Assembly: GCA_027065045.1 (NCBI GenBank)
Contig: JAMOOX010000152.1
Location: 1-64,000 of the forward strand
From: Campylobacteraceae bacterium
Lineage (GTDB): Bacteria; Campylobacterota; Campylobacteria; Campylobacterales; Sulfurovaceae
DNA length: 64,000 nucleotides
Direction of reading: 5' to 3'
In this document: in pieces, positions 17,337 through 56,865 of the stretch
Layout of the letters: each line of letters starts with the position of its first letter
How positions within the stretch are numbered: the stretch's first letter is position 1
The notes under the pieces: generated by a model
Seen by the model: only the letters and a program-made list of their open reading frames with translations
What the model was told of the DNA's origin: nothing
Database searches by the model: none
Position numbers and translations under genes: made by a program

Positions 17337-20300
17337 TTAGATAGTAGGCATACTAATATTAGCCTCTCGCATATCTACGCTATCCTCATCATATATAATC
17401 TCATAAGGGGCTGAATTATGATTATGTGCATCAATAAAGCGTGTAAATCCTTTTTGAAATATCAAATCTACCGTCCCTGTTGGTCCATTTCTCTGCTTTC
17501 CAATGATAAGTTCTGCATTCTCTTCTGGTTTAATTCTAAAATCACTCTTATACTCTTTGCCATCCTCTTTAGCTTTTATCTCCTTGGCTTTCTCTTTGGC
17601 TTCTTGATATACATCATCACGATATACAAACATTACAATATCTGCATCTTGTTCAATAGAGTTATGGACTATAATATCATTTGCTACAAAGTTATGAACC
17701 TTATCTATCGTTAAATCATAAGTTTTCTCTTTTTGATACTCTTCAATAGATACTATATCATCCCAATATATATCACTATTAGCAAGATTATCTATTACAC
17801 CATTATTAGGATTAGTTTGAATATCAGATATATACTCTAAATACTCCCTTACTCTCTCTCCTCTTTTACCAAAGCTACCAACATCTCTCAAAAATTTCTC
17901 TAAGTTATTTTTGCCTTGAATATCTATATGATAATTTGGACGATACTCTTTGTTAGATTTTATCTGCTTAACTTTTCTAATTGTTGAAATAATTCCAATT
18001 CTCAAAAGTAGAGAGTGTACTTGATTTGCTAAATCTATATTTGTAGTAGAGTAATATATTTTAATACTATCTCTTCTATTTTTAGATGTTTGTCTTGTGA
18101 TAGAACCATCTGTTGCCCATAAGTGAGTCAAAAATAGTTTAATTGCTCTATTATCAGACTCAAATACGACCTCTGGTATTTTTTTATCATAAGAACGGAC
18201 TCTATCTATATTTAACTTTTCATACCATAGTGTAATAGGATGTTTTTTATTATGTGTTAATCTATATGGAGAAGTTAAATATAGATGCCACCAACTATTT
18301 TGTGTTACTAATCTAGCATCTATATCAAATAATCTTTTAGCTACATCTCTTACAACTTCTATATTTTGCATATCTTCATTTGTATAATGATATGCTTGTC
18401 CCTCTAAAATAGAACCATCTCCAAGAAGATGGGCTATCAAAATCAACTCATCATCAGATATAGTATTTGTACCTACATTTATATCCATAAATTGTGGTGT
18501 AGCAATTTTATCACCAACTACTAATTTATCAAGTCTAATCCAGCCATCTAATCTATAAAATTTATGATTAGCAGTTGCTTTTATACTCCTACCTGATTTA
18601 GTTGTAATTCTATATGTCATTTTTTCACCCGTATAAAAAGCATTTGTAATATTAAAATTATCAATCTTTAAATTATTATCCATAGATTTCACTTTTAAAG
18701 GAAGGATATGGGCTTTATTATTTACTATTTCATCTATTCTATATCTTTTACCACTATTAGCATCTATAATAACCGTATTACCTACAAGACAACCACTCTC
18801 TCTTAAATCACTAAGCATCGGTCGTTTATTATCTCTAGCCTCTAATCCACGATTAAGTTGAGATAGTGCCAAAATAGGAACTTCAAGCTCTCTTGCAAGT
18901 TGCTTTAATCCTCTTGAAATTTCAGATATTACCATCTGTCGTCCCTCTTTGCTATCTCCACTCATAAGTTGTAGATAATCAATTATAGCCATAGAAATAT
19001 CAGGATGTTGGGCTTTGAGCTTTCTTAATTTACTTCGTATATGATGAATTGTAGCATATCCACCATCATCTACAAAAAGTTTTCTATTAGCCATTTTATC
19101 TGTAGCTTTGGATAAATGACTCCACTGGTCATCTGTAAGGTCTCCTATTCTAAGCTTTTGAAGAGGTATTGATGTCTCGGTTGATAAAAGCCTTAGCATT
19201 AACTGCTCTGCTGGCATCTCTAGTGAGAATATCGCTACACCCTCTCCTCTCTCAATAGCTTTTTGTGCCATATTTAAAACAAGTGATGTATTATGAGTTA
19301 CTGTCATATCTTCAAGTAAAAAAAGCTTATTACCATCAATCTCAAATCCATAATAATTATCTATTTTATCAAATTCTACTTTAATACCAGTATGAAGATG
19401 TTCTCTTTTAGAAATTAACTCTCTTGCTTGTTTTCTTTTTATTTTTGTAGGAATGATATTAAGATGTCCAACGATACGAACACGATAAACTTCACACTCA
19501 TAACCAATACTTTTTATTTTTGCTATCTTTGATTTAAACGAACATCTAAAACCTAAACTATCGGCTAAAAATTTAATCTGTTTAGCTAAATCTTTTGATT
19601 TTTGTGTAATCTCTATTACATGATATTTATCATCATAGTATCCATCACTATCTATCAATCCTGCTAAAAGTTCTAAACGATTTTTTTTACTATTAGCTAT
19701 ATATATTTGTGGGATATGTTTATTATTTAAAAGATTTAAATCTCTTAACTTTTTTTGTAAGGATATATCTTTTTTAATATTTCCACCTGTATATCCCTTA
19801 CCTATCCTATATGTAGGACATCTATCATCTGAAATATAATTACTTAGATTTAATTCCAAAGTACTAGCATACTCTTTTAAATAATTAATAATTTCAATAT
19901 CTTGTGTTGTTATCTCAACACTTGAACTTGTCCCATCACCCAACCATAATCCTAAAAAATATGGTTCAATATCTAACTTATTTTCAGAAAATTCAACAGC
20001 TACTTTATAACCTTTATAGTTACTTTTAAATCTATTAGATTTTTTTATATACTCATCAATAGATATATTTAAAATATCTCCATGTCTATATTTTCCCTCA
20101 TTTCTTGAACGCTTTAGAGATAAAATATGAGATTTATTTACACGATAATCTACCCCTTTATTTTGTTTAACCCAATACATCTCTTCTCTTCCACGAGCTA
20201 AAGAGAGGACTCTTCTAGGTGTAGAATTATCACCCATTAATAACTCTCCAACTTTAATATCTTCTACATTTTTAAGCTCTCCTGAATACATCAAAACTTT

Positions 20301-20936
20301 TGTACCTGCTCCAAGGCATTTTCCCATAGCTGGCCTAGCAGCGATTATTACCAAATCCCCCTTACCAAATCCACTTGTTTTTTTATTTAAGTCTTTAAAT
20401 CCTGTATCTATACCAACAAGTTCTGAATTACCAAGGGCTTTCATTCGCTCTATCTCACCAAGCATTGATAGAGATATACTTTTAGAGTCTTTAAAATCCT
20501 CATTTGTACTATTTTGAGTAATCTCATAGAGCTTTTTCTCTACTAAATTCATCACCTCATCAGCAGGTAAATCATCTTCAAGTGTTACCTTTTTTATCTC
20601 TGTTGCCAAAGATGCTAAAAGTCTTTTAGTTGATTTTGCTTTTATCTCATTAATATATGATTTTGTATTAACAATTGGATTGGTAGATAAAATATCTAAC
20701 ATTCCTTGTTCATCAAATTGCTTATTTTTTAATAGTTTTACTCTTAAAAACTCATCATCAAGAGGTTTATCTTCTAAAAATAGCTCTTCCATAGCACTAA
20801 ATATATGACTATGTAGTGGTAGATAGAAGTCTTGTGAGCTTAAAACAGTAGCTATCTCTTCGTAAATTTCTGGATCAAATAGTATTGAAGAGAGTACGGC
20901 TCTTTCAATATTGAGGTTATATAAGTTTTCTTGCAT
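17337..20936 (-). CDS. dnaB: Replicative DNA helicase DnaB precursor with two inteins
   Basis: A continuous 1199-codon frame. The exteins are residues 1-206, 550-715 and 1093-1199 and join to a 479-residue helicase of normal length. Extein 1 holds the N-terminal domain and the first part of Walker A (IAARPAMGK). Extein 2 begins TSLVLN and contains the Walker B strand AIIDYLQLM and DLRESG. Extein 3 begins SIEQDADIVMF. Intein 1 (207-549) therefore sits between the Walker Lys and Thr, and intein 2 (716-1092) between Gly and Ser of RESG/SIEQ. Both are in frame with complete splicing motifs. DnaB unwinds DNA at the fork, so growth should depend on splicing. The gene overlaps the ispG stop by one base. 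Confidence 0.97.
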   Translation of the reverse strand: MQENLYNLNIERAVLSSILFDPEIYEEIATVLSSQDFYLPLHSHIFSAMEELFLEDKPLDDEFLRVKLLKNKQFDEQGMLDILSTNPIVNTKSYINEIKAKSTKRLLASLATEIKKVTLEDDLPADEVMNLVEKKLYEITQNSTNEDFKDSKSISLSMLGEIERMKALGNSELVGIDTGFKDLNKKTSGFGKGDLVIIAARPAMGKCLGAGTKVLMYSGELKNVEDIKVGELLMGDNSTPRRVLSLARGREEMYWVKQNKGVDYRVNKSHILSLKRSRNEGKYRHGDILNISIDEYIKKSNRFKSNYKGYKVAVEFSENKLDIEPYFLGLWLGDGTSSSVEITTQDIEIINYLKEYASTLELNLSNYISDDRCPTYRIGKGYTGGNIKKDISLQKKLRDLNLLNNKHIPQIYIANSKKNRLELLAGLIDSDGYYDDKYHVIEITQKSKDLAKQIKFLADSLGFRCSFKSKIAKIKSIGYECEVYRVRIVGHLNIIPTKIKRKQARELISKREHLHTGIKVEFDKIDNYYGFEIDGNKLFLLEDMTVTHNTSLVLNMAQKAIERGEGVAIFSLEMPAEQLMLRLLSTETSIPLQKLRIGDLTDDQWSHLSKATDKMANRKLFVDDGGYATIHHIRSKLRKLKAQHPDISMAIIDYLQLMSGDSKEGRQMVISEISRGLKQLARELEVPILALSQLNRGLEARDNKRPMLSDLRESGCLVGNTVIIDANSGKRYRIDEIVNNKAHILPLKVKSMDNNLKIDNFNITNAFYTGEKMTYRITTKSGRSIKATANHKFYRLDGWIRLDKLVVGDKIATPQFMDINVGTNTISDDELILIAHLLGDGSILEGQAYHYTNEDMQNIEVVRDVAKRLFDIDARLVTQNSWWHLYLTSPYRLTHNKKHPITLWYEKLNIDRVRSYDKKIPEVVFESDNRAIKLFLTHLWATDGSITRQTSKNRRDSIKIYYSTTNIDLANQVHSLLLRIGIISTIRKVKQIKSNKEYRPNYHIDIQGKNNLEKFLRDVGSFGKRGERVREYLEYISDIQTNPNNGVIDNLANSDIYWDDIVSIEEYQKEKTYDLTIDKVHNFVANDIIVHNSIEQDADIVMFVYRDDVYQEAKEKAKEIKAKEDGKEYKSDFRIKPEENAELIIGKQRNGPTGTVDLIFQKGFTRFIDAHNHNSAPYEIIYDEDSVDMREANISMPTI
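17661..18791 (-). mobile_element. DnaB intein 2 (RESG/SIEQ site) with LAGLIDADG endonuclease
   Basis: This 377-residue intein starts with Cys (CLVGNTVII) and ends DIIVHN, followed by extein Ser. Block B is seen in SIKATANHKFYR (T-x-x-H), the two dodecapeptides in LILIAHLLGDGSI and LFLTHLWATDGSI, and block F in TYDLTIDKVHNFVAND. The second dodecapeptide departs from the consensus but keeps an acidic Asp. The insertion point DLRESG/SIEQDAD is one I recall from cyanobacterial and Rhodothermus DnaB inteins. Splicing looks possible from the residues present; endonuclease activity is inferred. Confidence 0.93.
19290..20318 (-). mobile_element. DnaB intein 1 (Walker A site) with LAGLIDADG endonuclease
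   Basis: This 343-residue intein begins CLGAGTKVLM and ends with the canonical FLLEDMTVTHN, followed by extein Thr. Block B is VNKSHILSL, with Asn at the usual Thr position. The endonuclease dodecapeptides are PYFLGLWLGDG (about residues 119-129) and LLAGLIDSDGYY (about 217-228), each with its acidic residue. Block F reads YYGFEIDGNKLFLLED. It interrupts the ATP-binding P-loop between Lys206 and Thr550 of the precursor, so the unspliced protein cannot hydrolyse ATP. Confidence 0.94.
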
Positions 20937-53070: not shown

Positions 53071-56000
53071 ATGGACATTTTATCTAATGATGAAGATAAT
53101 ATAAACGATATATTGATAGAAGATAGTATCAAGGGTAGTTATCTTGATTACTCAATGAGTGTGATTATAGGTAGAGCATTACCTGATGCTAGAGATGGAT
53201 TAAAACCAGTTCATAGAAGGATACTTTATGCTATGAGCGACCTTAATCTATCGTTTAGAAGTCCTTATAAAAAGTCTGCTAGGATTGTGGGAGATTGTTT
53301 GGTTGCTGGTTCTTTAGTATCTACAACAAGAGGACTTATTGCCATAGAAGATGTAGAGGTAGGGGATAAAGTATATACTCAAAAAGGTATAAAGCCTGTA
53401 ACAGAACTATTCTATCAACCAGAACAACCTCTTCTCAAAGTAACTCCAGAAATTAATATTTTTGAAAATAGAGTAACTTTGGGTCATAAGTTTAAGACTT
53501 TTAATAATGATTTAAAATATGAATTTAAAGAGTCAAGAAATTTGACTAAAGATGATTATCTTATAATGCAACCATCTTTAATAGATATAAAAGATAACTA
53601 CTCAAAAGATGAAACTTATGCTTTGGGTATGTTTTTATCAGATGGGAATATTGATAGATATAGAGATATGAATTATCTTAATTTTGCCAATTCTCAAATA
53701 GAAGTTTTAGAATATATTAGAGATATATTTGCCGTTAATGTAAAATTACATAAAAGTAAAACTACAAATACTCTAAAAATATCAAGTAAAAAGAGTTCAA
53801 AAGCATTTTTAGAAAAATTTGATATAACTAAATATAGCCATAACATAGATATAAACTCTACTATTATGAGTTTTTCAAATAAATCTCTTTTATCATTTGT
53901 GAGTGGATTTATAGATGGAGATGGTTTTATTAGAGATAATGGTAAAAATGAGATAGTAATCACTTCTGTATCTTATCAATTTCTAAGAAAATTAGGAATT
54001 TTACTATTTGATAGATTTGGAGTAGTTTCAAATATTATAAAATCATCTAATAAAGGTGATATTTATATAATTGATAATAAAGAGATAACTTCTAACTATA
54101 ACTGTTATAATCTAACTTTTACAGGTAGTAATGCCTATTTCTTCAAGGGTAAATTAAAACTAATTAATCAAAAGAAAAGAGATAGATTAGAGGCTTTAAA
54201 AGAGTCTAACTCACCAACTCTTACAAGTTATTTGCCATATTTCGCCAAAAAAGTTTTTGATATTTTCTCTCAAAGACATCTTGGTGCTGGTTGGTACAAA
54301 GATGAAAATGGCAAAAAGTTTAGATTGGGTATTAAATATAAAAATGGTAATAAAATAAGATATGCCAAAGAGTTATCAGATAATATTAGATTATATTCTG
54401 ATAGTATAGAAGAGTTAAATATTCTTGAAAAACTAAAAAGATTAGATATAAAACTATATGAACATCTTAAATATATAGTAGATAATAAGATAAGATTTAT
54501 TAAAGTTAAAAAAGTTAAAAAAATCAAAGATGAGATAACTTATGATTTTACTGTTGAAGATGAGCATGAGTTTTTTGTAAATGGTGTGATTAGTTCAAAT
54601 TGTATCGGTAAATACCATCCACACGGTGATAATTCAGTATATGATGCACTTGTAAGAATGGCACAAGATTTTTCTATGAGAATACCTCTTGTTGATGGTC
54701 AAGGAAACTTTGGTAGTATTGATGGTGATAATGCGGCAGCTATGAGATATACCGAAGCACGAATGAGTAGAGTCGCAGAAGATATATTAGCTGATATTGA
54801 TAAAGATACAGTTGATTTTGTAGCTAACTATGATGATAGTTTAAGTGAACCTGATGTATTGCCATCAAGAGTGCCAAATCTACTTGTAAATGGTAGTAGT
54901 GGTATAGCCGTAGGTATGGCTACTAATATTCCTCCTCATAGACTTGATGAGATAGTAGATGCACATCTATTTAGATTGGATAATCCAAATTGTGAGATAG
55001 AAGATATTTTGGAGATTATTAAAGGTCCTGATTTCCCAACGGCAGGTATTATATTTGGTAAAAAAGGGATTAATGATGCCTATACTACAGGGCGAGGTAG
55101 AATTAAAGTAAGAGCGAAGACTCATATTGAACAAAAGGGCAGTAGAGAGGTTATTGTAATTGATGAACTACCTTATCAAGTAAATAAATCAAGACTTATA
55201 GAGAATATCGCTTCACTTGTAAGAGATAAGCATATAGAGGGATTATCTGAAATTAGAGATGAGTCTGATAGAGATGGTATTAGAGTAGTAATAGAACTTA
55301 AAAGAGATGCTATGAGTGATATAGTGCTTAATCATCTATTTAAATCTACTCAAATGCAAGTTACATTTGGTATTATAATGTTAGCAATTGTAAATAAAGA
55401 GCCAAAAGTATTTAATATTTTAGAACTACTTGACCTATTTTTAAGACATCGTAAGACTATTATAATTAGAAGAACTATTTTTGACCTTGAAAAAGCCAAA
55501 GCCAAAGCACATATCTTAGAGGGGCTTTTAAAAGCTGTTGATAATATTGATAAAGTAATCAAAATCATTAGACAATCTAAAGATAGCGAGAGTGCAAGAG
55601 AGGCATTAGAGGTTAATTTTGACCTATTAACTATCCAAGCAAAATCAATCCTTGAAATGAAGCTTAGAAAACTTACAGGATTAGAGATTGATAATATCAA
55701 AGATGAGTTAGAAGTACTTAAAGAGGATATTGAATATCTAAATAGTATTCTAAAGAGTGAAGAGATATTAAATGGTATTATTAAAGATGAGCTTATAGCA
55801 GTAAGAGATAAGTATTCAACTCCTAGACTTACAGAGATAGTAGATGATTATGATGATATTGATATAGAGGATTTAATTCCAAATGAGCCAATGGTAGTAA
55901 CAATTACTCATAATGGATATGTCAAACGAATATCAACCAAAGCCTATGAGAAACAAAAAAGAGGTGGTAAGGGTAAAACTGCTGTTACTACTCATGATGA

Positions 56001-56865
56001 TGATTTTATAGAGAAATTCTTTATCTCAAATACTCATGATACACTTCTATTTATTACAAACTTAGGGCAATTATATTGGCTAAAAGTTTATCGTATTCCA
56101 GAGGGAAGTAGAGTTGCTAAAGGTAAAGCTGTTGTAAATCTAATTCAACTCCAAGAGAATGAGAAAATTATGGCAATTATTCCAACAAATGATTTTGCTG
56201 ATGATAAATCATTAGTATTCTTTACTAAAAATGGTACAGTTAAAAGAACAGCTTTAAGTGAATTTGGAAATGTAAGAATAAAAGGTGTAAGAGCTATTGT
56301 ATTAGAAGATGGAGATGAGATTGTAAAAGCAGATATTGCTCTACCTACATCAAAATATCTAATGATATTTACATCAGCAGGGCAAGTTATTAGATTTGAT
56401 ATTGAAAAAACAAGAAACCAAGGACGAAGTACCAAAGGTGTAAGAGGTATTAAGTTTAAAAAAGATGATGATTTTGTAGTTGATGCTGATGTAATAGAGA
56501 GCGAAGAACAAGAGATATTAACTGTAAGTGAAAAAGGAATTGGAAAACGAACAGAGGTAGAGGCTTATAGACTTACAAATAGAGCAGGAAGTGGAGTAAT
56601 ATCTATGAAATTATCTAATAGAACTGGTCAAAAGGTAATTGGTAATGTAATAGTAGATGAAAACCAAGATTTAATGGCTTTAACAAGTGCTGGTAAGATG
56701 ATAAGAGTAGATATGCAAACTATTAGAAAAGCAGGTAGAAATACAAGTGGAGTAACGATTGTAAATGTAGATAAGAGTGAAACAGTTGTAAATATAGCCC
56801 AATGTCCTAAAAAAGAAGAACCAAAAGAGGAGATTGTAGAAGAGAGTAGTCTTTTTGATGAGTAG
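53071..56865 (+). CDS. gyrA: DNA gyrase subunit A precursor with intein
   Basis: A continuous 1264-codon frame. Exteins 1-75 and 511-1264 join to an 829-residue GyrA of normal length. Extein 1 ends with KKSARIVGD; extein 2 begins [20 protein letters not shown], with Cys where most GyrAs have Val. The catalytic Tyr is Tyr560 of the precursor ([11 protein letters not shown], about residue 125 after splicing). The C-terminal DNA-wrapping beta-pinwheel contains the GyrA-box region QKRGGKGK. Gyrase introduces negative supercoils and is essential, so the intein must splice. The ribosome site is AAAGGGAG. It is divergent from napA. Confidence 0.97.
53296..54600 (+). mobile_element. GyrA intein ([12 protein letters not shown] site) with LAGLIDADG endonuclease
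   Basis: This 435-residue intein begins [10 protein letters not shown] and ends [11 protein letters not shown], followed by extein Cys. Block B is [11 protein letters not shown] (T-x-x-H), the dodecapeptides are [13 protein letters not shown] (about residues 108-120) and [14 protein letters not shown] (199-212), and block F is [16 protein letters not shown]. The residue before the terminal Asn is Ser instead of the usual His. A stretch rich in Lys (about 400-412) precedes block F. The insertion point differs from the active-site Tyr position I recall for mycobacterial GyrA inteins. Confidence 0.95.

Follow-up and report, generated by a model that had tools for sequence, protein, structure and literature searches.

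The gyrA gene in the window (the whole stretch of 64,000 nucleotides that was analyzed) carries an insert that ends in Ser-Ser-Asn and is followed by Cys, at a place where GyrA normally has Val. This raises the question of whether the insert is a working intein of a familiar kind, an intein whose last step is slow or controlled, or an inactive element, and of how the Cys came to follow it. The reading we favor, with a probability of roughly 85%, is that this Campylobacterota genome has in its single gyrA a complete and mobile class 1 intein, one that would splice, home together with its Cys +1 codon, and be precisely deletable, leaving the Cys in place.

The insert and its position in gyrA

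The open reading frame at 53071-56865 (+) is gyrA and encodes 1264 aa. It divides into an N-extein (53071-53295 (+), residues 1-75, with KKSARIVGD at its C-terminus), the insert (53296-54600 (+), residues 76-510), and a C-extein (54601-56865 (+)) identified from the ORF and from Pfam and NCBIfam matches. The insert starts with CLVAGS and ends with VISSN. Its length of 435 aa, its site directly after KKSARIVGD, its SSN ending, and the Cys at +1 had all been read correctly in the original prediction, as re-reading of the ORF confirmed. A genome-wide search found a single gyrA, which is the interrupted copy.

The insert matches the Pfam intein splicing domain PF14890 (45 bits, cut-off 35.8) and LAGLIDADG_3 (48 bits, cut-off 22.5). 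Class 1 inteins have Cys or Ser at position 1, Thr-x-x-His in block B together with block F Asp/His, and a C-terminal Asn followed by Cys, Ser, or Thr, all of which are found here. Cys1 (53296-53298 (+)), the step 1 nucleophile, is invariant in our alignment of 52 relatives, as is Asn435 (54598-54600 (+)), the C-terminal cyclizing residue, after which comes Cys +1 (TGT, 54601-54603 (+)). Block B reads TLGH (Thr61 to His64, 53476-53487 (+)), and block F supplies Asp417 (position F:4, 54544-54546 (+)) and His424 (54565-54567 (+)), the latter again invariant. Across the 52 aligned inteins the class 1 splicing residues are invariant or nearly so, and the window's copy has every one except the penultimate His, a usual but non-defining feature of the class, which is replaced by Ser434 at position G:6 (54595-54597 (+)). 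Assignment to class 3, whose members lack a nucleophile at position 1 and have Cys at F:4, is ruled out by Cys1 and by the Asp at F:4.

The endonuclease region, whose limits are approximate (53593-54450 (+)), contains two LAGLIDADG motifs with their catalytic acids, LSDG (Asp116) and IDGDG (within SGFIDGDG, Asp209), recognized by Pfam, by alignment, and by matches to I-DmoI-type nuclease folds. An AlphaFold model of the intein based on the 52-sequence alignment has a mean pLDDT of 91, and a PDB fold search with this model returned whole inteins with endonucleases as top matches, namely TliVMA (7qss) and PI-PfuI (1dq3). Sequence searches of the PDB gave nothing significant with the whole intein as query and weak matches to a HINT-like chain with the C-terminal 27 residues. 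Between six of the seven Campylobacterota copies, for which dS is partly saturated, dN/dS is about 0.06-0.24 in the splicing part and 0.15-0.28 in the endonuclease part, which points to purifying selection in each and is consistent with splicing and nuclease activity. Judged from its sequence, 53296-54600 is an ordinary, complete class 1 intein with a LAGLIDADG endonuclease, and it belongs to an already known type.

The site had been called unusual, which turned out to be wrong. We scanned a GTDB-based collection (one genome per species) with a degenerate DNA pattern for Asn-[Cys/Ser/Thr]-x-Gly-Lys-[Tyr/Phe]-His-Pro-His-Gly and obtained at least 117 stretches, translation of which gave at least 114 inteins at exactly the window's position, whether in GyrA or in a paralogous A subunit; the 114 listed do not include the copy in the window. 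The listed inteins come from Actinomycetota, Omnitrophota, Woesearchaeota, other archaea, Aquificota, Acidobacteriota, Bacteroidota, Pseudomonadota, candidate phyla, and Campylobacterota. Judging by its N-terminus, the Actinomycetota host appears to be not GyrA itself but the paralogous A subunit. Within the window's family, 5 of 175 genomes have an intein at this site. Among open-access papers we found none that names this insertion site, which is no proof that none exists.

That the allele is distinct from the one at the active-site Tyr held up, as the NCBIfam model of intein-containing GyrA (NF038098, the Tyr-site allele) resumes at the Thr following that Tyr. The window's GyrA scores 854 bits against this model, below its cut-off of 1850, and the match resumes at Thr561. 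Three other genomes of the window's family (G142, G144, and G166) carry the Tyr-site allele, and one Campylobacterales GyrA (L094) contains two inteins, one at the window's site and one at the active-site Tyr.

Inteins are also present elsewhere in the same genome, with at least five in four replication proteins. The window itself encodes a DnaB (17337-20936 (-)) with two of them, one in the P-loop (MGK/C...HN/T, with slashes marking the splice junctions) and one at SG/C...HN/S, and the GyrB and DnaE of the genome (L002 and L005) contain inteins too. In another genome (G066, locus L012), an intein-like frame interrupts the zinc-binding motif of an apparent DNA primase (CPFHGEKSPSF...HCFGC-LAPHEM), and ribonucleotide reductase inteins of related genomes (L011 and L013) end in Gln, not Asn (VITMQ/C and IMTLQ/C).

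The +1 codon and probable movement of the intein

Comparison with intein-free relatives, a check that had been proposed along with the original prediction, gave a clear result for the residue after the site. Of the intein-free genomes matched in the window's family, 134 of 136 have Val at +1 (codons GAY-GTN across the site), one has Cys (G056), and one has Thr (G166). In contrast, Cys occupies +1 in 114 of 114 among the inteins listed from the scan. The Val-to-Cys change does accompany the intein, as had been claimed; its explanation as adaptation of the host fares less well, and the Cys is better read as DNA brought by the intein through co-conversion. Empty alleles have Val and occupied ones Cys, so that a Cys gene without an intein can be read as a scar and intein loss could be counted from genomes.

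There are two candidate scars. The first is G056, a fragmented bin whose uninterrupted gyrA (L191) has Asp-Cys at the site. In the extein tree this genome is the sister of G055, which has Val, and adjoins the intein carrier G060. Near the site it shares the state of G060, and not that of G055, at 7 of 39 positions, compared with 36 of 1677 elsewhere (Fisher p 3e-5). Differences from G055 are likewise more frequent there, with 16 of 78 positions vs. 116 of 1638 elsewhere (p 2e-4). The tract had already been noticed when these two tests were made. The flank does not derive from G060 itself (76% identity downstream). By these comparisons, the short tract beside the site in G056 appears to be foreign, as homing would leave it. 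The second candidate comes from Micromonosporaceae, where 20 of 301 genomes have the intein and the sampled empty alleles are Val in 24 cases, Thr in one, and Cys in one. This last genome (G578, L250) has Asp-Cys and no intein, and it is a probable second scar of intein loss, read from its +1 Cys. Both scars were read from assemblies, and the merging of mixed strains during assembly could look the same as a precise deletion.

The simplest reading would be that homing brings the Cys along with the intein and that precise deletion later leaves it behind. In this mechanism the Val codon of an empty gyrA would be the target cut by the LAGLIDADG domain, and repair would copy in the intein along with the Cys +1 codon that belongs to it and some tens of flanking bases. 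A later precise deletion of the intein would leave the Cys. Precise loss of an intein may be a very rare event (PMC3229294). Alternatively, the Cys in G056 and G578 could predate any intein, i.e., these could be pre-adapted alleles and not scars. An intein-free clostridial A-subunit gene (L027) reads Gly-Asn-Cys here and so resembles an intein junction, which shows that Cys can arise even where no intein is present. We nevertheless regard a pre-adapted origin as unlikely, since Val to Cys takes two base changes, both families with a Cys allele also contain intein carriers, and the foreign tract in G056 is the residue expected from homing. The allele is also scarce: Asp-Cys or Glu-Cys was found at the site in none of 397 genomes sampled from the phylum (a sample without G056), once in the window's family, and once among 301 Micromonosporaceae. 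Intein-free Asp-Thr alleles occur in two unrelated groups (L192 of G166, and G584:C1:7481979); they may possibly resist homing, or their occurrence may be chance.

The intein and host trees conflict. In the extein tree the window's gyrA falls within its own genus (98/100), the four other members of which carry no intein and have Val; in the intein tree its intein joins those of G060, from another genus, and L094 (99). Accounting for intein presence on the extein tree takes five or more changes. From these trees we infer that the intein moved by homing between genera of the window's family. Vertical inheritance within the family, with many losses and little or no homing, would agree with the placement of all family copies in a single clade (100); it appears improbable given that the window's intein clusters with another genus and L094 while its extein stays with an intein-free genus.

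A phage vector was sought without success, and no close viral or phage copy appeared in our searches. None of the viral contigs has Asn-Cys at this site, viral relatives of the intein reach at most 37% identity over a short piece (mostly 21-29%), and the matches listed from phage records are below 30% identity.

Proposed splicing without the penultimate histidine

The penultimate His aids Asn cyclization in most inteins, and this third step is the slowest in most of those studied (PMC4031507). About 5% of functional inteins lack the residue, and putting it back benefits some inteins and harms others (PMC4031507). Among the 114 matches listed from the scan, the terminal pair is His-Asn in 107, Ser-Asn in five, Gln-Asn in one, and Leu-Asn in one, and the seven exceptions are five Campylobacterota and two Acidobacteriota inteins. 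Six of the seven Campylobacterota copies lack the His and have Ser, Gln, or Leu; the seventh, from Candidatus Thiovulum imperiosus, ends in Ser-His-Asn. The original prediction had named many same-site inteins ending in SSN as a finding that would count against it, and what we found comes close, with five relatives that have a residue other than His at this place, three of them ending in SSN.

In the intein tree (69 copies, each of at least 300 residues) all Campylobacterota copies fall into a single clade (100), with Thiovulum as sister to the six His-less copies (95). As this sister keeps the His, one loss suffices for the Campylobacterota clade, with a second in Acidobacteriota. Once the His was lost, the residue appears from the aligned sequences to have drifted among Ser, Gln, and Leu. 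No convincing compensating residue confined to the six His-less inteins emerged from a search of the motif blocks: Lys or Arg right after the block B position is found in all six, and also in most inteins with the penultimate His. In a phage intein, restoring the penultimate His slowed splicing, and the block F His can assume the role (PMC5050341). By analogy with such systems (PMC4031507; PMC5050341), the retained His424 most likely carries Asn cyclization here.

Splicing would then follow the class 1 course. Cys1 would attack the Asp-Cys bond, the N-extein would be transferred to Cys +1, and Asn435 would cyclize without the penultimate His, most likely aided by His424. The product would be a gyrase with Asp-Cys-Ile replacing Asp-Val-Ile.

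The ending had been taken to imply a slower or conditionally controlled final step, so that splicing would control the supply of gyrase. The usual contribution of the penultimate His to a usually slow step gives this proposal its appeal, and we nonetheless consider it quite improbable. Six inteins share the loss as a fixed trait and vary freely in the residue that takes the place of the His, the phage intein became slower once its His was restored, and the sequence indicates no regulatory input. Fast inteins with the same ending are also known: Npu DnaE, which splices in about a minute (PMC4031507), has Ser-Asn followed by Cys when its sequence is read, and it keeps the block F His. Because a fast intein with this Ser-Asn-Cys junction exists, a slow or conditional last step does not follow from the sequence. 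At the other extreme, an inactive intein and a broken gyrA, to which the missing penultimate His might point, can be dismissed as very improbable in view of the single gyrA, the intact reading frame, the purifying selection on the splicing part, and the retention of every other catalytic residue. With a single gyrA in the genome, the intein would have to splice if, as is well established, the cell cannot do without gyrase.

A second active-site position also varies at this site. The block B His is replaced by Gln in 65 of 72 aligned inteins, i.e., in all 65 of the non-Campylobacterota copies (e.g., L042, L103, and L061), and is kept in all seven Campylobacterota copies. It is also present in the other inteins of the window's genome for which the motif was read (the second DnaB intein, GyrB, and DnaE). 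This His has been described as the single most highly conserved intein residue, with only a small natural group lacking it (PMC6333167). Both histidines are present in the Thiovulum copy, and both are missing from the two Acidobacteriota copies. It looks as if the two residues had been exchanged, a pattern based on very few events and put forward with no claim of co-evolution. Rooting with DnaB, GyrB, DnaE, and Tyr-site inteins places the root near the Campylobacterota stem, but on very long branches.

We tentatively propose a broader view with two parts, which we hold to be possible and rather less than even odds. Most inteins of this site combine Gln in block B with a penultimate His and the Campylobacterota clade does the reverse, and the family may thus be a natural experiment on active-site rebuilding in which two catalytic histidines were exchanged; and the Val-to-Cys change may leave in gyrA a natural record of former intein occupancy, from which loss can be counted.

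Comparison with known systems

The mycobacterial Tyr-site GyrA inteins (Mxe GyrA; NF038098) share class 1 and the host protein with the window's intein. They differ in lying about 50 residues further on (RY/T), in being followed by Thr, and in ending with His-Asn in the copies seen, and they are not close in sequence. TliVMA (7qss) and PI-PfuI (1dq3) have the same combination of a splicing domain and a LAGLIDADG endonuclease fold (TM-scores 0.66 and 0.63), in other host proteins and at 14-17% identity.

Npu DnaE has the same penultimate Ser, C-terminal Asn, Cys +1, and block F Asp and His, and its block B His is likewise followed by Lys (ATKDHKF vs. TLGHKF in the window). Unlike the window's intein it is split, lacks an endonuclease, and resides in DNA polymerase III, and the similarity is limited to the splicing motifs. 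The mycobacteriophage RDF intein (PMC5050341) is also class 1 and splices without a penultimate His (it has Gly, and His slows splicing), although its host, a phage recombination factor, is unrelated.

A further comparison is with the same-site inteins of other phyla, which share Cys1 and Cys +1 and have 27-39% full-length identity to the window's intein. They differ in the two histidine positions, as 107 of the 114 listed end in His-Asn and the 65 aligned from outside Campylobacterota have the block B Gln. This Gln-for-His family of at least 65 members from many phyla, together with a clade that keeps the block B His and lacks the penultimate one, allows direct tests of compensation.
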